From the NCBI RefSeq assembly GCF_041435335.1, contig NZ_CP108430.1, forward strand, positions 4,997,001-5,061,000: a stretch of 64,000 nt of DNA. The letters are read 5' to 3'. Both the position numbers and the translations under genes were made by a program. Under the pieces are notes generated by a model. It did not search any database. It was not told the DNA's origin and worked only from the letters and a program-made list of their open reading frames with translations. Numbering within the stretch: the stretch's first letter is position 1; each line of letters begins with the position of its first letter. Source of the stretch: Streptomyces sp. NBC_01283. GTDB lineage: Bacteria > Actinomycetota > Actinomycetes > Streptomycetales > Streptomycetaceae. Shown piece by piece: positions 1 to 10,908 of this stretch.

Positions 1-701
1 AAGAGACCGAAAAGCTGCGGGAACTGATCAAGCGAGCCCGCTTTGTCCTCTTCGACTTCGACGGACCCATCTGCCGGCTGTTCGCCGGCCACTCGGCCGA
101 GCGGATCGCGAGTGATCAGGTCCGCTGGCTCGAGGAGCGGGGCCTGCGCGGTCTGCTGACCCCGGAGGAGCGGGCGCAGCCCGACCCCCATGCCGTCCTG
201 CGGGCGGTCGACCGCAGACACCCCGGCAGCGATCTGGTGGGCGAGCTCGAAGAGCGGCTCACCCATCAGGAACTGACGGCGGTGGCGTCGGCATGGCCCA
301 CCCAGTACGCGGACCCCCTCATCATGACGTGGCACGCCATGGGCTCCCGTCTGGCCGTCACCACCAACAACTCACCGCGGGCGGTCTCCCGCTATCTCGA
401 AGGCCGTGGCCTGAGCCATTGCTTCGCCCCGCACATCTACGGCCGCACCCAGGACCTGCATCTCCTCAAGCCGAACCCGCACTGCCTCAACCGCGCCCTC
501 AACGCGATGGGCGCGAAGCCCTCGGCCGCGCTGATGATCGGCGATGCCCCCACGGACTACCAGGCGGCGGAGGAGGCAGGAGTGGCCTTCCTGGGCTACG
601 CGCGTAACGAGCGCAAGGCGAAGCTGCTCAAGGACGCAGGGGCGGCTTGTGTGGTGAGCTCGCTGGAGCCGGTACTGCGGGTGTTGCGCGACAAGGCCTG
701 A
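1..701 (+). CDS. HAD-superfamily hydrolase, 5' end cut off by the window
   Basis: The reading frame is open from base 3, so the gene begins upstream of the window; 232 residues are visible. Motif I is FDFDGPI (Asp18 and Asp20 of the visible part), motif II is the TTNNSP stretch, motif III the Lys in LKPNPH, and motif IV the GDAPTD segment with Asp181. This is the complete catalytic set of a subfamily IA HAD phosphatase, like phosphoglycolate phosphatase. The substrate cannot be read from sequence. It lies beside a GntR regulator and a double kinase-fold protein, so a role in removing a phosphate added by that protein is possible, but this is inference. It converges with the small membrane gene at 713-895, eleven bases away. 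Confidence 0.85.
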   Translation, partial: ETEKLRELIKRARFVLFDFDGPICRLFAGHSAERIASDQVRWLEERGLRGLLTPEERAQPDPHAVLRAVDRRHPGSDLVGELEERLTHQELTAVASAWPTQYADPLIMTWHAMGSRLAVTTNNSPRAVSRYLEGRGLSHCFAPHIYGRTQDLHLLKPNPHCLNRALNAMGAKPSAALMIGDAPTDYQAAEEAGVAFLGYARNERKAKLLKDAGAACVVSSLEPVLRVLRDKA

Positions 702-712
702 ACGCCGGGTGC

Positions 713-895
713 TCAGGCCTGTGCCATCAGGAGCATGAAGACCAGGACGGACAGCGAGACGCAGGCCCTGTTGCGCGCGTGTATGCCGATCGCGAGCAGG
801 CTCAGGGCCAGAAGCCCCGGAGTGCCGTACCGCGACTGGAGCAACTGCTCGATGCCGAAGCCGATTGCGGCCGCGAGCAACTGGAAGAAGACCAT
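713..895 (-). CDS. Small membrane protein, 60 aa
   Basis: Two hydrophobic helices (about residues 3-18 and 26-57) are separated by a short polar loop with QSRYG, so the whole protein is probably a membrane hairpin. The ATG is preceded by a GGGG-rich stretch that could serve as ribosome binding site. It is transcribed away from the GntR gene at 1032, and the two share a 136-bp promoter region containing a perfect palindrome. I do not recognise the family. It is called a gene because of its coherent hydrophobic profile, clean start and position between a convergent and a divergent neighbour. It could still be a chance frame in GC-rich DNA. Confidence 0.55.
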   Translation of the reverse strand: MVFFQLLAAAIGFGIEQLLQSRYGTPGLLALSLLAIGIHARNRACVSLSVLVFMLLMAQA

Positions 896-950: not shown

Positions 951-962
951 GTCCAATTGGAC
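951..962. promoter_or_regulatory. Perfect 12-bp palindrome between divergent genes
   Basis: GTCCAATTGGAC is its own reverse complement and lies in the only AT-leaning part of the 896-1031 intergenic region, beside a TTGACT box at 965-970. Its position between the small membrane gene and the GntR gene makes it a candidate operator for the GntR protein. The link to GntR is inferred from location only. Confidence 0.4.
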
Positions 963-1031
963 TGGTTGACTTGAGATTGGTGTGCCCTGGCCGACTGATC
1001 CCTTAACCAACCGCCCTGCCGTGCAACCAAT

Positions 1032-1961
1032 GTGACTGGAAGCGGTTTGTCAGAGGTGCGGCAGAGGTACGGTCGCCGTGTGGTCGGTGAGCGGTCCGGT
1101 GAAGGCGGCGGCAGCGAGTTCCGGCGGGTCTCGGACGCGCTGCACTCCCGCTTGGTCGACGGCACGTACCCCCTGGACAGCCTGCTCCCCCCCCAGCGCG
1201 AGCTCGCGCGCGAATTCGACGTCTCCAGGGACACCATCCAGCGGGTGCTGAGGGAACTCATCAGCGAGGGCCTCGTCCGTTCCAAGCAGGGGAGCGGGTC
1301 GCGGGTGGTGAAGGCGCAGCTGGCCCACATGAGTGCCGGGGGCGGGAGAGCGGGCGGCAGCACCGGCCGTGTCTCGCTCGGGCCGATCATCGGTGCGGCC
1401 TTCGAGGCCTCCCGGGTCACCCTGGACGTCTTCACCCTGACCTCCGAGTCGCTGGACGCCCACATCCGTGTACAGGCGGAACGCATACGGGTCCGGGCGA
1501 TCGAGCCGGAGCGCATCGCGGTCCGCATCCTGCTGCCCTCCGAGGATCTCGACCTCCCCTACCCCCGCGCCAAGGACGACCCGGCCGACCCGCGTCCGCA
1601 GCTGCGCCTGCGCGACATCACCCGGCGGCACACGGCGTCGCTGCGCAACGCGCTGCGGGACCTGCACACCGAGGGCCTGGTGGCGGAGGTGGACGTGGAG
1701 GTGCGCAGAGTGCCGCTGACGCCGGCGTTCAAGCTCTACGTACTGAACGGCACGGAGGCGCTGCACGGCCCGTACGAGGTGATCGAGCGCCGCATCCAGC
1801 TGGATGACGGCGAGGAGATCGACGCCCTGGACGTGCTCGGTCTGGGCTCGGCCCTCACGCACTACGTGCGCGAGGAGGACCCCGAATCGCAGGGAGCCCT
1901 CTTCGTCTCCAGCATGCAGGCCTGGTTCGACTCGTGCTGGACGCTTCTCGCGAAGTCGTGA
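1032..1961 (+). CDS. GntR-type regulator with a degenerate PLD-like C-terminal domain
   Basis: It has 309 residues from a GTG start. Residues about 29-98 form a GntR winged helix with the usual PPQRELAREFDVSRDTIQRVL recognition segment, ending in the KQGSGSRV wing. Residues about 129-305 are not an evident UTRA or FadR domain. They resemble, segment by segment, the soluble domain of the membrane protein at 4418-5297: a strand-rich start (VTLDVFTLTSESLDAHI), VRILLP, a long middle, then FKLYVLN with Lys234 and Asn239, GPYEVI and a closing WF-W motif. The K-x4-N pair looks like a phospholipase-D HKD remnant (HxKxxxxD) that has lost His and Asp, as in the sensor domain of TrmB. It probably binds a ligand and controls the genes that follow. 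Confidence 0.85.
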   Translation: MTGSGLSEVRQRYGRRVVGERSGEGGGSEFRRVSDALHSRLVDGTYPLDSLLPPQRELAREFDVSRDTIQRVLRELISEGLVRSKQGSGSRVVKAQLAHMSAGGGRAGGSTGRVSLGPIIGAAFEASRVTLDVFTLTSESLDAHIRVQAERIRVRAIEPERIAVRILLPSEDLDLPYPRAKDDPADPRPQLRLRDITRRHTASLRNALRDLHTEGLVAEVDVEVRRVPLTPAFKLYVLNGTEALHGPYEVIERRIQLDDGEEIDALDVLGLGSALTHYVREEDPESQGALFVSSMQAWFDSCWTLLAKS

Positions 1962-2133
1962 GCGAATCGGCACCAAGCGGAAATTCGTCGAACGCCACGT
2001 CCCTCAGGAGTGGCGCCTCCCTCTTTGAGCCCATCGTTTACCGGTCTCGCGTCGTCCGGTGTCTCGCGCGCCACTAGGGTGTGCATCACTTTCACCTCCC
2101 TCGCGTGACTATTCAGCTATTCAGGAGCAGCCC

Positions 2134-4395
2134 GTGGGCATTCCTGTGCCCGGTCCTCCTTCCCTGGCGCCTTCCGGCCCTCCCCTCACGGGGTCCGCCG
2201 ACGAGAACGAAGCACTCGACGTGCACGACGTGTACGACGGATTCGTCGAGCACGCCTTGCGGCACGGGACGGTCAGCGGGGGCCACCACAACCAGAACTA
2301 CGTGCTTCCGCTGACGCAGTCCATGGCCCGGCTGGTCGACCGCTACCCGGGGCGGCCCGTCACCGTGCGGCTGCGGCGCCAGGATGCGCTGCCGGTCGTC
2401 ATCCGGACCTGGCAGGACGAGTCGGAGATCCTGCGGGCCATCAAGGGCGTGCTGCCCCACGTGCCGGAATGCCTGGCCAAGCGCGGCGACTCCGCGGTGC
2501 ACAGCTATGTGGAAGGCGTGCCGTTCTCCAGCATCTGCCAGAACGGCAAACCGGTCGACTCCTTGCTGATCAAGGCCCTGGCGACGCTGCTCGCGCAGAT
2601 GACCCAGGTGCGCAGGGAGGCCCTGCCCCCGCTCCCGGCCGACTGGCCCCGCATGGACAAAGGCGGGCCCACGTTCCTGCGGACTCTCGCGCATCTCGCG
2701 GAGCGTCAGATCCGCCAGCCCAATTGGACGGAGTTCGGCGGGCTTTTCGCGGCACTCGGCATTCCGGACGACGCGCTGCTCAGGCTGGCGGAGCGCGCGC
2801 CGAACATGGCCCGCCGCCCCTACAGCCTGCTCCACACAGACCTGCACCGCGACAACGTGATCTTCTCCTACGGAGGTGATCCGCCGCTGATCTGCGTGGA
2901 CTGGGAGCTGGCAACGTACGGCGATCCCCTGCACGACCTGGCCACGCACCTCGTCCGCATGCGATACCCGGACCATCAGTGGGATGAGGTGATCGCGGCC
3001 TGGGCGGAGGCGATGGAGCGCCTCAGGCCCAGGGCGGTCAACGGCCTGGGCCGGGACCTCGACCACTATGTGGCCTTCGAGCGCGCGCAGTCCGTCTACC
3101 CGGACGTCATGCGCGCCGCCCGGTCGCTGGGGAGTTCGCCGGACCAGAAGAGCCTCGACGAGGCGACCTACGCCGTGCGCAAGGCGCTGGAAGCCGCGGC
3201 CGTTCCGCTGCAGTTGCAGGGCGTGCCGGACGCGGAGGAGATCCAGCGGGTGCTGTTCCGCTGGTGGGCTGCCCGGCTCGGGGGGCGGGCCGAGGGAATC
3301 CGGCAGGCGACCCCGATCTCCTGGGAGCCGAACGAGCGCGTGCCGGAGCATCCCGCGTTCCCCCGGTCCGCCGTGCTCGAAGCGCTGATCGCCGAAGGGG
3401 CCGCCCCGGCCTCCCGCGTCTACAAGGGGACGGCCCACCTCAACACCGTGGTCCGGGTGGACGGCATCACCTTCCCGGTCGTGATCCGGCGGAAGCTGAC
3501 CTCGGCCGAGCGGCGCGAGCGCAGCATCCTCAGTGAGCACGCGGTGCTGCGGGCCATCGAGGATTCGGGAGAGCCGGTGCGGGCCCCCCGCGTACTGGCG
3601 CTGGGGGCAAGTCACTTGAAGGACGGGTTCGCGATCCATTCCTACGAGGGGTCAGGTGCCGGAGACCTGCCGCCGGACCACCCCGTGGACGGATTACGCC
3701 CCGCCGAAGCCGACCATCTGGTCGATCAGTTGGGTGCGTTGGCCCGGATCGACACCCAACAGCTGGACCCGACGGTCGGCAAGACGGATTTCTACCGGTG
3801 GCTCTGCGACGAACTGGCGCGGCTGGTCATGTATCTCCCCAAGGAATCGCAGAAGCTGGCAAGGGAGCTCGGTCTGCCGGACGGCTACCGGCTCTGGGAG
3901 ATCTTGATCCGTCACCGGCTGACACCACGCCGGCCCGCCTTGCTGCACGGAGATCTCAACCCCTGGAATCTCGTACGCCGTGACGGTGACGACGGACCGC
4001 TCACCGTCATCGACTGGGAGATGGCGATGATCGGTGATCCGCTGTACGACCTGGTCCGCCACATGCATCTCACCCCGACCCGCCCCGAGATCAGACAGCG
4101 CATGTTCGGCCGCTGGGTCGCCCGCCTGCCGGAGGCGTGCACTGCAGGGTGGCAGGAGGAATGGAAGGTGTACCGCTGGATCGAGGTGGTTCGGTCCGCC
4201 TACGTGGACCTGGACCGACTCGTCACCGGGGCCGACCTGGACGCCCCCAACGTGCAGCGGGCCGTGGACTCGTATGCGATGACACTGGCCACGGCGCAGG
4301 CATCGCTGGGGCTCCGCCCCAGCCCGACGGCCAATCCCTATCTTGCCCGGGCGCTCCCGCACGGCCAGCATGGAGGAATGAGAGCGGCGCCGTAG
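2134..4395 (+). CDS. Protein with two tandem aminoglycoside-phosphotransferase-fold domains
   Basis: I chose GTG at 2134 because AGGAG lies 6 bases upstream; this gives 753 residues (an earlier GTG at 2059 is in frame but lacks such a site). Each half is an APH/choline-kinase-like unit. The first has the Brenner motif HTDLHRDN (His234, catalytic Asp236) and metal-binding Asp256 in VDWE. The second has HGDLNPWN (His605, Asp607) and Asp627 in IDWE. Both keep the catalytic set, so both may be active. The usual family member has one such domain of about 300-350 residues. The substrate is unknown. Codon 3694-3696 is TTA, the only one I could find in any gene here, which would make translation depend on the bldA tRNA. 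It probably forms an operon with 4418-5297, 22 bp downstream. Confidence 0.85.
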   Translation: MGIPVPGPPSLAPSGPPLTGSADENEALDVHDVYDGFVEHALRHGTVSGGHHNQNYVLPLTQSMARLVDRYPGRPVTVRLRRQDALPVVIRTWQDESEILRAIKGVLPHVPECLAKRGDSAVHSYVEGVPFSSICQNGKPVDSLLIKALATLLAQMTQVRREALPPLPADWPRMDKGGPTFLRTLAHLAERQIRQPNWTEFGGLFAALGIPDDALLRLAERAPNMARRPYSLLHTDLHRDNVIFSYGGDPPLICVDWELATYGDPLHDLATHLVRMRYPDHQWDEVIAAWAEAMERLRPRAVNGLGRDLDHYVAFERAQSVYPDVMRAARSLGSSPDQKSLDEATYAVRKALEAAAVPLQLQGVPDAEEIQRVLFRWWAARLGGRAEGIRQATPISWEPNERVPEHPAFPRSAVLEALIAEGAAPASRVYKGTAHLNTVVRVDGITFPVVIRRKLTSAERRERSILSEHAVLRAIEDSGEPVRAPRVLALGASHLKDGFAIHSYEGSGAGDLPPDHPVDGLRPAEADHLVDQLGALARIDTQQLDPTVGKTDFYRWLCDELARLVMYLPKESQKLARELGLPDGYRLWEILIRHRLTPRRPALLHGDLNPWNLVRRDGDDGPLTVIDWEMAMIGDPLYDLVRHMHLTPTRPEIRQRMFGRWVARLPEACTAGWQEEWKVYRWIEVVRSAYVDLDRLVTGADLDAPNVQRAVDSYAMTLATAQASLGLRPSPTANPYLARALPHGQHGGMRAAP

Positions 4396-4417
4396 AGGCA
4401 CGCTCGGGGGAGGGCTC

Positions 4418-5297
4418 TTGCCAGGGGCAGCGAGTGGTGCAGCGGGCGGTGGCTTCACCGGATGGCTTCGTCGATACCGGGCCCGGTACGAGTCGGCGGC
4501 CACCCGTGTCCTGCTGCTCGGCATCTTTGTGACCGGGCTGACCGCGCAGTTCGTGAAGCCGGTCGGAGACGCGATCGCGGGGCAGGTGTTTCTGGGGGGG
4601 AGCGCTGCTCAGCCTGGTCGGATATGTGCTGTACAACGCGGTGCAGGAACTCGCCGTCTCGACCCGGCCGCCCGACAGGGGCCTGGTCAACTCCCGGGAC
4701 CTGGGCAGTCTCGTGGGCGAGGCCTTCCACTCCAGGAAGGTGGAGATCTGCTTCCTCGGCTATACGGGCGAGACGCTCTACAACGAGCTGTATCACCGGC
4801 TGGAGAGCCTTCTGGACGACCCGGGGCCGACAAAGCGGGTGTCGGTCAGGATGCTGATACCGGACTTCGGGCGTGAGATGGCCGTGCCCTCGCGCGTCGG
4901 CCCCGACGGGAAACCCGTCGACTACCCCGAATTCCGTGCACGGCTCGAGGCCAAGTGCCGGGAGTACGACCAGATTCTGTCCAGGCTCGCCGACCGGTTG
5001 ACCGCCGACGGCAGGGTGCTGGTGCACTGCGAGTACCGCCTGTACAACGGGGATCCGCGGGACAAAGTGTGCATCTTCAACAAGGAACTGGTGCTGTGCG
5101 GCCTCTACGACGTGGTCGCCACCATGTCCTTGCAGGATCCCGACTGCGAGGTCTACGACCCCAAGGGCTACAACACGGACCTTGCCGTCCGTTCCCGCAA
5201 GGAGGGGACGGCAGCCGCCGAGACGGCTGTCGCGACACAGATCAGCCACTTCGAGGGGGTGTGGAGTCTGGCGGCCACACCTTCGTGGCGCCGGTGA
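4418..5297 (+). pseudogene. Membrane-anchored degenerate PLD-like protein, frameshifted at a run of seven G
   Basis: TTG at 4418 follows GGGGGAGG and opens a frame that encodes an arginine-rich start and a membrane helix (VLLLGIFVTGLTAQFV). The run GGGGGGG at 4594-4600 then throws it out of frame. Removing one G gives one continuous 292-residue protein with a second helix (ALLSLVGYVLYNAV) and a soluble domain. A GTG at 4626 could also express the soluble part alone. The soluble part matches the GntR C-terminal domain at 1032-1961: ICFLGYTGETLY, VRMLIP, and DKVCIFN with Lys (5064-5066) and Asn (5079-5081) in a K-x4-N arrangement. Either the extra G is a sequencing error, or the gene is broken or phase-variable. 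The function is unknown. Confidence 0.65.
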
Positions 5298-5306
5298 CCC
5301 GCCCCC

Positions 5307-6053
5307 TCACGCCGTCCGCCTCCTGAACAGCGCCCCCGACGCCGCCGCCGAAGCCGCCAGGATTCCCGCGCACCAGGTCAGGGCCACCCAGGGTGTGCTG
5401 CCCACCGGCTGGGCGAGGAGCAGGCCGCGGAGGGATTCGATGACCTGCGTCACCGGTTGGTTGTCGGCGATGGGGCGGAGCCAGCCGGGCATGGTGGAGG
5501 TGGGGACGAAGGCGCTGCTCGGGTAGGGGAGGAAGCTCACGAAGAAGGTGAAGCCGCCCGCCGCCTCCGGGGACTTGGCCAGCAGGCCCACCGTTGCCGA
5601 GAGCCAGGACAGCGCCAGGATGAAGGCGAGGAGGACCCCTGCCGCCGCGAGCCAGCCGGGCAGGGTCGCCGTTGGGCGGAAGCCGATCGCGAAGGCCAGG
5701 GCCAGGACCAGGGTCGTCGCGATCACGTTGCGGGCCACCGAGGCGAAGACGTGGCCCGTCAGGATCTGCGGGCCGCCGATGTCCAGGGAACGGAAGCGGT
5801 CGATGATGCCGCCCTTCAGATCCTCCGTCACCGCCACCGCCGTGTTCGCCGAGCCGAAGCCGGCGCAGAGGAGCAGGACCCCGGGGACCACGTACGTGAC
5901 GTACGAGGAGGTGTCCGTCCTGATCGCGCCGCCGAAGAAGTAGACGAAGATCAGGAGCAGCATCACCGGGAGCGCCATCGCCGTGATCAGGGCGTCCACG
6001 TTGCGGCGGCTGATGCGGATCGCCCGGCCGGTCATGATCAGCGCTTCAGACAT
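5307..6053 (-). CDS. ABC-2 type exporter permease, DrrB-like
   Basis: The 248 residues contain six hydrophobic stretches in the ABC2_membrane pattern, beginning with ISRRNVDALITAMALPVMLLL and including the family segment DRFRSLDIGGPQILTGH between helices. This is the membrane half of a DrrAB-type drug exporter. The ATG lies inside the end of the upstream ATPase gene: ATGTCTGA spans the start and the TGA of the partner, an 8-bp overlap that suggests translational coupling. The substrate cannot be read from sequence. Confidence 0.9.
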   Translation of the reverse strand: MSEALIMTGRAIRISRRNVDALITAMALPVMLLLIFVYFFGGAIRTDTSSYVTYVVPGVLLLCAGFGSANTAVAVTEDLKGGIIDRFRSLDIGGPQILTGHVFASVARNVIATTLVLALAFAIGFRPTATLPGWLAAAGVLLAFILALSWLSATVGLLAKSPEAAGGFTFFVSFLPYPSSAFVPTSTMPGWLRPIADNQPVTQVIESLRGLLLAQPVGSTPWVALTWCAGILAASAAASGALFRRRTA

Positions 6054-7050
6054 GGGTCATCCCCGGGGTGTGTGAGGGGGCCGTGGTCGGGGGCTTGCTC
6101 CGTGGGTCCGTGAGGCTCAGGAAGACGTCGTCCAGCGTCGCCGTGCGGAGCGTGAACGTCGCGAAATCCGTGCGGTCCGGGTCCAGGTCGTCCAGCAGGG
6201 TGCGTACGTCCGCTGCCGTGCCGTCCGTCGGGAAGCCGAGCGTCAGGGTCTCGGGGGAGTGGTGCGTGGCCCGGCCGGACAGGCGCAGGTAGGCCTCGTG
6301 GGTGGTGAGCGACGCCTCCAGGCGGTGGCCGGACACCAGGGACTTGAGGGCCTGCGGCGAGCCCTCCGCCGCGATCATTCCCTCGTGCAACACCGCGATG
6401 TGGTCGGCCAGTTGGTCTGCCTCCTCCAGGTACTGGGTCGTCAGGAAGACCGTCGTGCCGTGTGCCGTGAGGTCGCGCACCACCTCCCACATCTCCTGGC
6501 GGCTGCGCGGGTCCAGGCCCGTCGTCGGCTCGTCCAGGAAGATCACCTCCGGGTCGCCCACCAGGCCCGCCGCCAGATCGACGCGGCGGCGCATCCCTCC
6601 CGAGTACGTGCGGACCAGGCGGTCGGCCGCTTCCGTGAGGTCGAAACGGGTCAGCAGTTCGGCTGCCCGTGCGCGGGCCGCGGCGCGGGGCAGGCCCACG
6701 AGCCTCGCCATCATGCGGAGGTTCTCCGCGCCCGTCTGCGTCTCGTCGACCGCCGCGAACTGACCGGTGAGGCTGATCGCGCGACGGACCTCGCGACGCC
6801 CCGTACGGATGTCATGGCCCGCCACCCGTGCCGTGCCCGTGTCGGGGGTGGTGAGCGTGGTGAGGATGCGGACGGCTGTGGTCTTGCCTGCGCCGTTCGG
6901 GCCCAGGAGCGCGAAGACGGTGCCGGGCGGGACGTGGAGGTCGATGCCGCGGAGTACGGGGGTGGCGCCTCGGCCGCCGGATCGGCCGTAGGTCTTGGTG
7001 AGGGCTGTCGCCTCGATGGCCGGAGTGGCGGCTGGGGGTGGTGGGGGCAT
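6046..7050 (-). CDS. ABC exporter ATP-binding protein, DrrA-like
   Basis: ATG at 7050 follows GGAG at 6-base spacing and gives 334 residues; the frame runs on upstream but without a credible start. Walker A is GPNGAGKTT (about residues 46-54), the signature is YSGGMRRR, and Walker B is EVIFLDEPTTGLDPRS. The C-terminal extension after residue 230 is typical of daunorubicin-resistance ATPases. It forms a complete exporter with the permease at 5307-6053. The promoter faces the TetR gene at 7159 across a region with inverted repeats, so repression by that TetR is the likely control. Confidence 0.92.
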   Translation of the reverse strand: MPPPPPAATPAIEATALTKTYGRSGGRGATPVLRGIDLHVPPGTVFALLGPNGAGKTTAVRILTTLTTPDTGTARVAGHDIRTGRREVRRAISLTGQFAAVDETQTGAENLRMMARLVGLPRAAARARAAELLTRFDLTEAADRLVRTYSGGMRRRVDLAAGLVGDPEVIFLDEPTTGLDPRSRQEMWEVVRDLTAHGTTVFLTTQYLEEADQLADHIAVLHEGMIAAEGSPQALKSLVSGHRLEASLTTHEAYLRLSGRATHHSPETLTLGFPTDGTAADVRTLLDDLDPDRTDFATFTLRTATLDDVFLSLTDPRSKPPTTAPSHTPGMTHV

Positions 7051-7064
7051 GCGGGACTCCTTTA

Positions 7065-7104
7065 CTGCGTATGGTCTACGCGTTACCGAGTAAGGGTTAC
7101 GCAG
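7065..7104. promoter_or_regulatory. Inverted repeats in the divergent TetR/ABC promoter region
   Basis: CTGCGTA at 7065-7071 and TACGCAG at 7098-7104 are inverted copies. Between them lies a second, tighter pair, TTAC-CGA-GTAA (7083-7093). A TACGAT box at 7108-7113 would be the -10 element for the TetR gene. A TetR dimer bound here would cover both promoters. The assignment rests on symmetry and position only. Confidence 0.5.
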
Positions 7105-7158
7105 AACTACGATGTGCGTCAAGCACGGCAGCTCAGGAGGAGGAGGCGACGGCGGGCC

Positions 7159-7953
7159 ATGGCGGCGGACGAGGCAACTGGTGAGGGTGCGCGGGACGAG
7201 GGCGAAGGCGTGGGGGGCTCGGGGCTTTCCGCGAGCCTCGAAACCGCCTGGGGGCTGCGCGAGCGGCCCTCGAAGGGGCCCAAGCCCGGCCTGAGCCTCG
7301 ATCGCATCGTCGACGCGGGCATCGCCATCGCGGCCGCGGAAGGCATCGGCGCGGTCACCATGGGGCGGGTCGCCAAGGCGCTCGGCGCCTCGCCGATGTC
7401 CCTCTACCGGTACGTCTCCGCCAGGGACGAGCTCTACGTCCTCATGCAGGACGCGGCGACCGGCTTCCCGCCCGAGATGCCCGCGGCGATCACGGGGTGG
7501 CGGGCGCGGCTGGAGTGGTGGGCGCGGGCCCAGCGCGAGGTCTTCCGGCGCAACCTGTGGCTCGTACGCATCCCCATCACCTCGCCGCCCGTGTCCCCCC
7601 ACTCCCTGGAGTGGATGGAGCAGGGGCTCGCGGCGCTCGACGGCAGCGGGCTAGAGGAGGGCCAGAAGCTCTCCGTGCTCATGCTGGTGGGCGGGTTCGT
7701 GCGGAACGAGGTCGTCTTCATGGCCGATCTGGACACGGCCATGAGGGCGGGGGGCAAGGAGCCCGACGAGGTGATGCGGCAGTACGCACGCACCATCGAC
7801 GCCCTCACCTCGATCGCCCCCGAACGCTTCCCGGCGCTGCGGCGGACGCTCGCGACGGGCGTACTCGACGTCGCGGACGCCGAGGACACGGAGTTCGAGT
7901 TCGGGATCGGTCGGGTGCTGGACGGGGTGGCGGTGTTGATCGGGGATCGGTGA
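7159..7953 (+). CDS. TetR-family regulator next to a drug exporter
   Basis: From ATG 7159 the protein has 264 residues. The DNA-binding domain is at about residues 45-100 (IVDAGIAIAAAEG, then GRVAKALGASPMSLYRYV), followed by a TetR_C-type ligand domain. An AGGAGGAGGAGG stretch lies about 12 bases before the ATG, longer than usual spacing; GTG 7114 is an alternative start. The divergent arrangement with a DrrAB-type exporter is the classic layout of a repressor that releases its pump genes when it binds the exported compound. The ligand is unknown. Confidence 0.88.
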   Translation: MAADEATGEGARDEGEGVGGSGLSASLETAWGLRERPSKGPKPGLSLDRIVDAGIAIAAAEGIGAVTMGRVAKALGASPMSLYRYVSARDELYVLMQDAATGFPPEMPAAITGWRARLEWWARAQREVFRRNLWLVRIPITSPPVSPHSLEWMEQGLAALDGSGLEEGQKLSVLMLVGGFVRNEVVFMADLDTAMRAGGKEPDEVMRQYARTIDALTSIAPERFPALRRTLATGVLDVADAEDTEFEFGIGRVLDGVAVLIGDR

Positions 7954-7968
7954 CGTCTGCGGTGTCTC

Positions 7969-8685
7969 CTACGCGTACTGCTCCAGCCCCGACCGCAGCT
8001 GGCCGAAGGCCCGGTTCGCCGCCACCACCGCGTCCGGCCACACCGCTTCCGCGCTCTCGCCCGCGTCGATCCGGCGCCAGTTCTCCAGGGCGAGGATGCG
8101 CTGTACGGCGATGATCTGGCCGGCGGCCAGGCGCGCGGCGAGCGCTTCCTCGTCCGACGCCTCCTCCGACGCCGACCCGTTCGGTGCCTTCCTGGACGCC
8201 TCGCTCAACGCCTCGCCCAGCGCTTTCTCCGACCGCTCCTGGTACCCGTACAGCCGTGCCACCAGGGACGGCGTCCCGTACAGCAGGCGGTGGAAGGCGA
8301 GTACGTGGACGTTGTCGCACAGGCCGGTCACCGGGTCCTGGCGCTCCAGGCCGTCGAGGAAGTGGCGCTGCAGGGTGTCCAGGGGGGAGCGCTTCGGGGG
8401 GCGCCCGGCCACCACCCGCGCGGCCTCGTCCACGTGGTCCGCGAACCGGTGGAGTACGAGGTCCTCCTTGGCCGGGAAGTACCGGAACAGGGTCGGCTTC
8501 GAGATGTCGGCGGCTGCCGCGACCTCAGCGACCGGCACCTTCTCGAAGCCCTTCTCCAGGAAGAGGGCGATCGCCGCGTCGGAGACCGCCTGGTACATCC
8601 GCTGCCGCTTGCGCTCGCGCAGGCCGGGGGTGGGGCCAGGGGTGGGGTCGGAGCCGGGGTCGCCGCCCGCTTTTTCGTCCGTCAT
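7969..8685 (-). CDS. TetR/AcrR-family regulator paired with a HelD-like gene
   Basis: Two ATG starts are possible, 8703 and 8685. I prefer 8685 (238 residues) because TACTCT at 8692-8697 lies exactly 6 bases upstream, the spacing of a leaderless promoter, and neither ATG has a ribosome binding site. The helix-turn-helix is VAEVAAAADISKPTLFRYF, after a Pro/Gly-rich leader. The rest is a helical ligand domain. It is divergent from the HelD-like gene at 8770 and very likely regulates it through the AT-rich repeats between them. Confidence 0.87.
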   Translation of the reverse strand: MTDEKAGGDPGSDPTPGPTPGLRERKRQRMYQAVSDAAIALFLEKGFEKVPVAEVAAAADISKPTLFRYFPAKEDLVLHRFADHVDEAARVVAGRPPKRSPLDTLQRHFLDGLERQDPVTGLCDNVHVLAFHRLLYGTPSLVARLYGYQERSEKALGEALSEASRKAPNGSASEEASDEEALAARLAAGQIIAVQRILALENWRRIDAGESAEAVWPDAVVAANRAFGQLRSGLEQYA

Positions 8686-8715
8686 GGCGGGAGAGTATCG
8701 CATCGCTGAGTCGCG

Positions 8716-8754
8716 GTAACGAATTTAACTTGGCGACAAATTTAACTCGGTTAC
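8716..8754. promoter_or_regulatory. AT-rich direct and inverted repeats between TetR and HelD-like genes
   Basis: AATTTAACTTGG (8722-8733) is repeated as AATTTAACTCGG (8739-8750) 17 bp further on, and the pair is bracketed by GTAAC (8716-8720) and GTTAC (8750-8754). A TATTCT box at 8757-8762 is placed as -10 element for a leaderless transcript starting at the ATG of 8770. This is a good candidate TetR operator controlling both genes. Confidence 0.55.
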
Positions 8755-8769
8755 ATTATTCTCGGTCGT

Positions 8770-10908
8770 ATGACGCGACCCGACGAAGCCCTGGCCCAAG
8801 AACGCCGCTTCCACGACACCTGCCGCGCCGCCCTCACCGGCATGGTCGACGGCGCCGAGGAGCAGGTCGTCAGCGGAGCCGATGTCTCCGCGTCCGGCGC
8901 CGACGCCGAAGTCCTCGGCTACCAGTTCCGCAGCCACGCCAAAGCGATGCGCGAACTTCCCGAGGCTCCCCTCTTCTTCGGCCGTCTCTCCTTCGCCGCC
9001 GACGGTCCCGAGGCCGCCGAAGCCGGTGAACACCGCGGGCAGAGCTACCACATCGGCCGCCTCCGCATCAGCGAACACCCCTCCGCCCCGCCCCTCGTCG
9101 TCGACTGGCGCGCCCCCGTTTCCCGCGCCTTCTACCAGGCGGGATCCCGCGACCCCCAAGGTGTCGCCGTCCGCCGCCGCTTCGGCTGGGCCCCCGGCAG
9201 CAAGGGCGACTCCGCCGACCTCACGGGCCTGGAGGACGAGCCGCTGGCCGCCGCCAAGCCGGACACCCTCACCGGCGGCACGTCGCACACCCCCGGCGGA
9301 CCGGAGGTCTCGATCGCGCCGGACGAGCCCACGACCCCGGCCCCGCCACCCCCGCACGGCAGCCGCATCCTCGCCGGAGAGATCGAGCGCCCCCGCGTCG
9401 GCCCCATGCGCGACATCGCCGCCACCATCCAGCCCGAGCAGGACGACCTCGTCCGCGGTGAACTCACCGCATCCGTCTGCGTCCAGGGCGCCCCCGGCAC
9501 CGGCAAGACGGCCGTCGGCCTGCACCGCGCCGCGTATCTCCTCTACACCCACCCCCAGCGCGTGCAGCGCGCCGGACTCCTCATCCTCGGCCCCAACCGC
9601 ACCTTCCTCCGCTACATCGCCGAGGTGCTCCCCTCCCTCGGCGAGACCGGCGTACGGCAGTCCACCGTCGCCGACGAGATCGCCAGGGCCACCGCGCCCG
9701 TACGCGCCCAGGACAGCGAGGCCGCGGCGAGCGTCAAGCACGACGCCCGTATGGCGGAGGTCCTGCGCCGCGCGCTCTACTCGCGCGTCGCACCGCCCGC
9801 CAACTCCATTGCGGTGCCGGACGGTTCGTACACCTGGCGAGTCCCGCTCGGCGACCTGGAGCGGATCATCGCGGATGCCCGCGCCGAGGAACCCCCGTAC
9901 GCCGTCGGGCGCGAGCGCGTGCGCACCCGTGCCGTCCGGCACATCCAGGAGCAGGCCGAGCGCCGCGCCGGGGCCGTGAACAACGCCTGGCTGCAGAAGA
10001 TCTCCCGCGCCCGCTCCGTCTCGGCGTTCGTCGACGAGGCCTGGCCCAAGGCGCGGCCCGGCGAGGTGCTCGCCGCCCTGCTCGCCGACCCGGAGGCGCT
10101 GGCCGCCGCGGCCGACGGCATCCTCGACGCCGACGAGCAGCGGGCGATCCGCTGGGCCAGTCCCCCGCGCTCGTACAAGTCGGCGAAGTGGTCCGCCGCG
10201 GATCTCGTTCTGCTCGACGAGATCGCCGGGCTGCTCGAACGCCCCGGCGGCTACGGCCACATCGTCGTCGACGAGGCGCAGGACCTCTCCCCGATGGAGG
10301 CCCGCGCGATCGCCCGCCGTGCCGACTTCGGCTCGCTCACGGTTCTCGGGGACCTCGCCCAGGGGACCACCCCGTGGGCCGCCCGCGGCTGGCCCGAACT
10401 CCTCGCCCACCTCGGCAAACCCGACGCCTCCGTCACCCCGCTGACCATCGGCTTCCGTGTCCCGAAGGCGGTCGTGGGCCTCGCCAACCGCGTCCTCGCC
10501 TCGCTCGACGTCGACGTACCGCCCGCTCGGTCGCTGCGTGTGGACGGGGAGTTGAGGATCCGGGAGGTGCGGGACGTGGGCGCGGCCACCGTCGACGCGG
10601 TGCGGGCCGCGCTGGTCCGCGAGGGCTCGGTCGGCGTCATCGCCGCCGACGCGGACACCGCCCGCCTGCGCGAGGCCCTCACCGCGGCGGGCATCGAGAG
10701 CGCGGGCCCGGACGACCTGGGCGCACGCGTGACGGTGCTGCCGGCGTCCATGGCGAAGGGGCTGGAGTACGACCATGTCGTGGCCGTCGAGCCCGCGGCC
10801 ATCGCGGAGGCGGAACGCCGCGGGCCCAGCCGCCTCTACGTGGTCCTGACCAGGGCGGTGTCCCGACTCGACGTGCTGCACAGCAGGCCGCTGCCCTGGG
10901 AAGGGTGA
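8770..10908 (+). CDS. HelD-like superfamily 1 ATPase, possible RNA polymerase remodeller
   Basis: The 712 residues contain a Walker A motif QGAPGTGKT near residue 240, a Walker B VVDEAQDLSPME near 500, a GDLAQGTTPW motif III, the GFRVP motif and a C-terminal MAKGLEYDHVV segment. The N-terminal part includes RLRISEHPSAPPLVVDWRAP, diagnostic of HelD rather than UvrD. HelD proteins bind RNA polymerase and release it from stalled complexes; a Streptomyces relative, HelR, protects the polymerase from rifamycins. This copy has a shorter N-terminal arm than canonical HelD and a dedicated TetR neighbour. I cannot tell which of the two roles it has. Confidence 0.82.
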   Translation: MTRPDEALAQERRFHDTCRAALTGMVDGAEEQVVSGADVSASGADAEVLGYQFRSHAKAMRELPEAPLFFGRLSFAADGPEAAEAGEHRGQSYHIGRLRISEHPSAPPLVVDWRAPVSRAFYQAGSRDPQGVAVRRRFGWAPGSKGDSADLTGLEDEPLAAAKPDTLTGGTSHTPGGPEVSIAPDEPTTPAPPPPHGSRILAGEIERPRVGPMRDIAATIQPEQDDLVRGELTASVCVQGAPGTGKTAVGLHRAAYLLYTHPQRVQRAGLLILGPNRTFLRYIAEVLPSLGETGVRQSTVADEIARATAPVRAQDSEAAASVKHDARMAEVLRRALYSRVAPPANSIAVPDGSYTWRVPLGDLERIIADARAEEPPYAVGRERVRTRAVRHIQEQAERRAGAVNNAWLQKISRARSVSAFVDEAWPKARPGEVLAALLADPEALAAAADGILDADEQRAIRWASPPRSYKSAKWSAADLVLLDEIAGLLERPGGYGHIVVDEAQDLSPMEARAIARRADFGSLTVLGDLAQGTTPWAARGWPELLAHLGKPDASVTPLTIGFRVPKAVVGLANRVLASLDVDVPPARSLRVDGELRIREVRDVGAATVDAVRAALVREGSVGVIAADADTARLREALTAAGIESAGPDDLGARVTVLPASMAKGLEYDHVVAVEPAAIAEAERRGPSRLYVVLTRAVSRLDVLHSRPLPWEG

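Follow-up and report, generated by a model that had tools for sequence, protein, structure and literature searches.

In the genome of Streptomyces sp. NBC_01283 (9.6 Mb), a GntR regulator and a membrane protein share a degenerate phospholipase D (PLD)-like domain, and their genes appear to form an extension of the devE-devA-devB sporulation locus, together with a double kinase. That both statements hold, the shared domain and the identity of the locus, we regard as practically certain. The genes lie at the start of a stretch of 64,000 nucleotides (G000:C1:4997001-5061000), which is called the window here. From its start, the gene order is a HAD gene, an open reading frame (ORF) of 60 amino acids on the minus strand, the GntR gene, the double kinase gene and the gene of the membrane protein, which is read in two frames. 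Upstream of the window, in the part of the same genome covered by locus L013, two further regulators of the same type are located, each with a divergent ORF of 61-62 amino acids. In the following, GX3 denotes the third DevA-type GntR regulator, found in the window, and TM-X the membrane protein family. The two main proteins were located as follows (window positions):

1080 to 1961, plus strand: GX3, third DevA-type GntR regulator (PF00392, 66.9 bits at a cut-off of 27)
1377 to 1943, plus strand: predicted degenerate PLD-like domain of GX3 (profile-profile comparison, model, fold match, motif counts)
4418 to 4593, plus strand: N-terminal piece of TM-X with the first hydrophobic helix, in one frame
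4594 to 4600, plus strand: run of seven G where the frame of TM-X changes
4626 to 5297, plus strand: rest of TM-X with the second hydrophobic helix and the soluble domain, in the other frame (4626 is merely the first start codon)
4701 to 5267, plus strand: predicted degenerate PLD-like domain of TM-X (profile-profile comparison, model, fold match, motif counts)

A PLD-like domain shared by DevA-type repressors and TM-X

The original prediction, made from the letters of the window, had proposed one and the same domain for the C-terminal half of the GntR protein and the soluble part of the membrane protein, and this homology was recovered by several searches. In its own genome, the soluble piece of TM-X matched the C-terminus of GX3 (window 1371-1955) with an E value of 6e-6 and 27% identity and also a second GntR protein, upstream of the window (E 4e-5). 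Used as query against 61 genomes, it found matches at E <= 0.001 in 22 of them, which in the own genome were two GntR proteins besides itself. With an iterated profile, called proteins containing the domain were detected in 19 of the 20 loci fetched at first. In L016, the one exception, the gene caller had overlooked the TM-X gene, as it also did in L071, and the presence of the gene in both was established separately. Direct comparison of the GntR-type profile (72 rows) with the membrane-type profile (42 rows) gave a probability of 99.5 and an E value of 4e-22 over 190 columns with 25% identity. Of the genomes searched, 32 of 296 from the class and 8 of 246 from the phylum contain the domain, these samples being overlapping.

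AlphaFold2 models were calculated for GX3 of the window and for TM-X of L033 (Streptomyces pseudovenezuelae, genome G011, with identical TM-X), using separate alignments without common rows. The mean predicted local distance difference test (pLDDT) score was 90.6 for GX3 and 80.9 for TM-X; ten-residue blocks of the TM-X domain reached 86-97, and the hydrophobic helices were modelled with low confidence. The two models contain twelve main elements in identical order, and TM-X shows in addition a short helix at the end and two strands of three residues each. Both models match PLD-type structures, TrmB being among the matches of TM-X, so that the comparison of models called for earlier yielded like folds and not different ones, and the predicted fold is that of the PLD superfamily. 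Foldseek listed MITD1 first for TM-X and RadA-type proteins from E 9e-3 on. By sequence, the best match of the TM-X profile to chains of the PDB had an E value of 0.31, and neither of the two TM-X pieces had a match in Pfam and NCBIfam.

The motif of PLD enzymes (HxKx4D, named HKD) is not found in the shared domain, as its His is present in none of the 114 rows analyzed (72 GntR-type, 42 membrane-type). Its Lys is kept in 112 rows (72/72 and 40/42) and its Asp is replaced by Asn in 102 rows (61/72 and 41/42). G-x-Y and a closing W are conserved in both types as well. Thus the pattern of K-x4-N, G-x-Y and W, which had been recognised in the two proteins and taken as a TrmB-like HKD motif without its His and Asp, extends to their relatives. 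Since the motif is degenerate, no catalysis of the PLD type is expected. Judged from alignments and models, the effector domain of DevA-type regulators is most probably PLD-like, present as a single copy and catalytically dead.

The tree calculated from 78 rows of the domain contains a branch with 100/100 support and a length of 2.89, which separates all TM-X rows from all GntR-type rows. The labels change four times over the tree because three TM-X rows (L013_23, L058_11 and L070_09), which have no called hydrophobic N-terminus, were labelled as singletons. From these data TM-X appears to be a separate lineage of the PLD-like domain fused to an N-terminal hydrophobic helical hairpin, and one old fusion event would be the simplest reading of its origin. 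That TM-X arose recently from the third GntR regulator was considered and is not supported, as all TM-X rows used lie together on one side of this branch.

The protein assigned earlier to positions 4418-5297 does consist of a membrane and a soluble part. It is not a single open frame, the two frames parting at the run of seven G. The N-terminal piece (G000:5001442-5001606) is 65% identical to residues 9-63 of the L033 protein, and the piece from 4626 to 5297 is 63% identical to its residues 54-294. Relatives in genomes G011 and G014 are single open frames of 307 and 325 codons, respectively. To survey the company of TM-X, 41 loci (L033-L073) were fetched with TM-X itself as query, comprising 40 Streptomyces records and one named 'Actinobacteria bacterium OK074'; since TM-X was the query, the set tests only the company of TM-X. 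Four places were fetched twice (L014/L033, L015/L064, L016/L071, L019/L073), and all counts given for the 41 loci use L033-L073 only. TM-X is one called gene or open frame in 40 of them. The copy of the window is either broken, by a recent mutation, or mis-assembled. A second frameshifted copy (L070:8478-9325) breaks at a different place. A programmed frameshift was rejected, as none of the 41 TM-X gene pieces scanned contains a run of seven G and L070 breaks elsewhere.

Identity of the locus

In a paper from 2011 (PMC3187754), the GntR gene devA, its upstream duplicate devE, the co-transcribed putative phosphatase gene devB and a small divergent gene devC are described. According to this paper, DevA is a repressor of devA itself and of devB, and mutants of devA, devE and devB show developmental defects. 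Additional devA-like copies are reported for S. sviceus, and devC-like genes at devE for two species only. Cross-regulation between devA and devE was argued against, and the regulons of DevA and DevE as well as the metabolites which they sense were stated to be still little understood (PMC3187754).

The two remaining genes at the start of the window fit this description:

1 to 701, plus strand: putative HAD phosphatase DevB (PF00702, 64.9 bits), with the 5' end 6 bases outside the window
713 to 895 (L013:14714-14896), minus strand: devC-like hydrophobic ORF of 60 amino acids, divergent to the GX3 gene

The HAD gene, which had been noticed upstream of the GntR gene, is cut by the window start; the complete devB gene (L013:13995-14702, 235 amino acids) is located directly 3' of devA. 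DFDG, KPNP and GDAPTD, read by eye in the translation, are the motifs of a putative HAD phosphatase. In five of six loci tried, the second regulator gene is the one that the printed flanks of devA align with, one flank directly in front of the gene and the other at its end. In the own genome, the downstream flank fits the second regulator, and the best alignment of the upstream flank is in front of devE. For the printed devE primer, the places of alignment were mixed. GX3 is a GntR regulator, as was proposed, with an N-terminal winged helix-turn-helix (HTH). Its proposed start at 1032 could not be kept: the frame is open also from there, and alignment with relatives makes 1080 more likely. GX3 is 38% identical to the own DevA (residues 16-291) and 34% to the own DevE. 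It can be placed in the DevA subfamily by its C-terminal effector domain, which is homologous to that of the gene at the devA place, and by its neighbourhood, with a devB-type HAD gene before it and a divergent devC-type small ORF. Taken together, the sequence comparisons place the finding at the devE-devA-devB locus, extended by the third GntR gene, the kinase and TM-X. The earlier statement that no system of this layout has been described was too strong, since the HAD gene and the GntR genes upstream correspond to devB, devA and devE of the published locus (PMC3187754).

The locus is already known but little studied, and what is added here are the PLD-like fold, TM-X, the third GntR gene with the double kinase, and the palindrome described below. 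A term search of PMC3187754 gave no occurrence of kinase, membrane, phospholipase, operator, inverted repeat or palindrom-. Searches of openly licensed PubMed Central papers found no description of a PLD-like fold for the effector domain of DevA, of the membrane-anchored relative of this domain or of the double kinase.

Further devC-like hydrophobic ORFs, each divergent to a DevA-type regulator, are located upstream of the window on the minus strand (L013:11440-11625 and L013:12767-12955). Over the 41 loci, a small divergent ORF was called directly before 24 of 39 devE, 38 of 40 devA and 17 of 37 third GntR genes. No homology was detected between these small proteins and the hairpin of TM-X (hhalign probability 0.1).

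The double kinase

Between GX3 and TM-X, one protein with two kinase domains is encoded:

2221 to 4395, plus strand: putative double APH-type kinase (open frame already from 2059, conservation from about 2281)
2827 to 2913, plus strand: active-site stretch of kinase domain 1 (LLHTDLHRDN ... CVDWELA)
3940 to 4023, plus strand: active-site stretch of kinase domain 2 (LLHGDLNPWN ... IDWEMA)

The two PF01636 stretches score 164.4 bits in all. A start at about 2221-2260 is more likely than one at 2059, since the aligned rows are conserved only from near residue 75 of the frame from 2059 onwards. For the alignment, the window protein was combined with 36 of the 41 called proteins, and five shorter or single-domain rows were left out. 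In each of the 37 rows, both domains retain H, D and N of HxDx4N as well as the first D of DWE. With PF01636, HxDx4N and the metal-binding Asp, both domains are predicted to be kinases of the APH type, in agreement with the two phosphotransferase cores proposed earlier.

Recurrence of the gene set

The full set of devE, devA, devB, third GntR gene, double kinase and TM-X is present in 34 of the 41 loci, which answers in the affirmative whether these neighbours co-occur. Called were devE in 39 loci, devA and devB in 40 each, the third GntR gene in 35 and a kinase of at least 600 amino acids in 37. Kinase and TM-X sit with devA and devB in 37 loci. TM-X is immediately preceded by a kinase gene in 37 loci, and 36 of these have both genes on one strand. 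In addition, 199 Streptomyces genomes were surveyed, for which genes were picked by hand from match listings and the statistics ignore kinship. A full-length kinase was found in 46 genomes, the third GntR gene in 44 and both in 34. Thus the third GntR gene occurs in 34 of 46 genomes with and in 10 of 153 genomes without the full-length kinase (Fisher p 2e-19, kinship ignored). TM-X with at least 59% identity was found in 12 genomes, of which all 12 have the third GntR gene and 11 the kinase. In G391, G433 and G493, the kinase is directly followed by short matches to TM-X, which look like remnants.

Several loci show different arrangements. In S. indicus (L065:7495-9636), the double kinase is located on the opposite strand between the third GntR gene and TM-X. 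S. cyaneus (L072) has two single kinases and an extra HAD gene around TM-X, and in S. flaveolus (L073) TM-X is preceded by two HAD genes and a kinase is lacking. L026 and L030 also carry additional HAD and kinase genes. Downstream of TM-X, the window (5307-10908) encodes what we take, from reading the translations, to be an ABC-2-type exporter pair on the minus strand, a large protein resembling helicases (8770-10908) and two TetR-like frames. Many of the 41 loci likewise have a TetR-like gene and this large gene after TM-X.

Candidate operators

In the 41 loci, which comprise 823,579 bases, 66 copies of the palindrome AGTTGG-N3-CCAACT were counted. They are located within 300 bases before 39 of 39 devE and 27 of 40 devA genes and at no other place. 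When one mismatch was allowed, 32 of 40 devA genes were reached; two mismatches gave 22 scattered sites elsewhere. In the own genome the palindrome is found only twice, before devE (L013:11736-11750) and before devA (L013:12985-12999), and the pattern read backwards, used as control, once. Among the 199 genomes, 116 carry the site. The backwards control also occurs 0 to 4 times per genome, and therefore the position of the palindrome and not its number is the evidence. Because the palindrome is common to both genes, DevA is predicted to be able to bind the promoter of devE, and DevE that of devA, whereas PMC3187754 argued against cross-regulation. A different site was found for the third GntR gene:

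951 to 968, plus strand: candidate operator of the third GntR gene, GTCCAATTGGACTGGTTG, sole match in the own genome at up to two mismatches

Over the 41 loci, the palindrome of the third GntR gene, built around CCAATTGG, is present before 26 of 37 genes with 16 sites elsewhere, and TCCAATTGGA before 19 of 37 and once elsewhere. In the gap before the kinase gene no repeated block was recognised.

Possible function of the gene set

We tentatively propose that the PLD-like domain senses a phosphorylated ligand, which is quite possible but falls short of probable. The domain keeps the Lys of HKD, which would handle phosphate, and may sense a phosphorylated small molecule with it. The double kinase would make this compound and DevB would strip the phosphate from it. 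Binding of the ligand would free the cytoplasmic repressors from their operators, and TM-X at the membrane may read the same compound or compete for it. The outcome would be a negative-feedback loop timing aerial growth and septation. We infer such a loop because the Lys is kept and a kinase and a phosphatase are the company of the sensor domains. As an explanation of the locus, a dev system with PLD-like sensor domains, kinase and DevB is offered with the same reserve. That the complete loop operates, with DevA-type sensor, metabolite-making kinase, phosphate-removing DevB and TM-X coupling the signal to the membrane, is rather doubtful.

Several findings weigh against a common loop. The 41 loci yielded no operator that all genes of the cluster have in common, and the palindrome of devA and devE is absent there before the third GntR gene, the kinase and TM-X. 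Kinase and TM-X are present without the third GntR gene in L053, L054 and L069, TM-X without kinase in L073 and with a single kinase in L064. In S. djakartensis (L071), TM-X has no dev genes in the 20.9 kb fetched. Of the 46 genomes with the kinase, 35 do not have TM-X at 59% identity or more, and in the source genome TM-X is frameshifted.

The domain could instead be chiefly a dimerisation or docking module, so that TM-X, having no HTH, pairs with the DevA-type repressors and holds them at the membrane off the DNA, with kinase and HAD phosphatase serving another end. The closest folds of the TM-X model, which include the non-catalytic or dimeric PLD-type proteins FAM83B, Nuc, NucT and Zucchini, are consistent with this, as is the third GntR gene in all 12 genomes with TM-X of 59% identity or more. 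However, TM-X is separated from the GntR type by the long 100/100 branch (2.89) and only about a quarter of the residues agree, so that a kept heterodimer face is not evident; in addition, three loci have TM-X with DevA and DevE but without the third GntR gene. We consider this unlikely. It is improbable, in our view, that the slot from devB to the downstream TetR-like and helicase-like genes is simply variable, with kinase, HAD and TM-X as neighbours without a common pathway. The single kinases and extra HAD in L072, the lack of a kinase in L073, the inverted kinase in L065, the additional kinase and HAD genes of L026 and L030 and the separate TM-X of S. djakartensis would fit such a slot, but the full set is kept in 34 of 41 loci, a count that tests only the company of TM-X, and the third GntR gene and the kinase go together in the 199 genomes (p 2e-19, kinship ignored). 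Binding of nucleic acid by the domain, as in TrmBL2 or PLD-type nucleases, modulating DNA binding without sensing a small molecule, is very improbable given the membrane anchor on the same domain in TM-X and the loss of the HKD His in all 114 rows.

If true, the ligand-sensing proposal would give the GntR regulators a further type of sensor, with a PLD-like fold. With a dead PLD-type domain common to repressors and a membrane protein, and kinase and phosphatase genes alongside, the locus points to a signalling loop of bacterial development that has not yet been studied. With the effector fold, a conserved Lys, candidates for the maker (kinase) and the breaker (phosphatase) of the ligand and an exact candidate operator, the question of the DevA/DevE ligand becomes testable in S. 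coelicolor and its relatives.

Comparison with known systems

TrmB and TrmBL2 are archaeal regulators with a PLD-like domain of similar fold, at 10-17% identity to the domain described here. The HTH of GX3 scores better as GntR (66.9 bits) than as TrmB (26.0 bits, cut-off 25.6), and no sequence match to the TrmB effector domain was obtained. The human FAM83B, with the DUF1669 domain of the FAM83 family, is 14% identical; it is eukaryotic, and FAM83 DUF1669 proteins are not known to have an HTH or a membrane hairpin. Nuc, NucT and Zucchini are single-domain PLD nucleases, whereas the HKD motif is degenerate here. The devA/E/B/C locus of S. coelicolor is alike in its duplicate GntR genes, a devB-type HAD gene after devA and a small divergent gene; the locus of Streptomyces sp. 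NBC_01283 adds the third GntR gene, the double kinase and TM-X, together with the predicted PLD-like fold and the palindrome.
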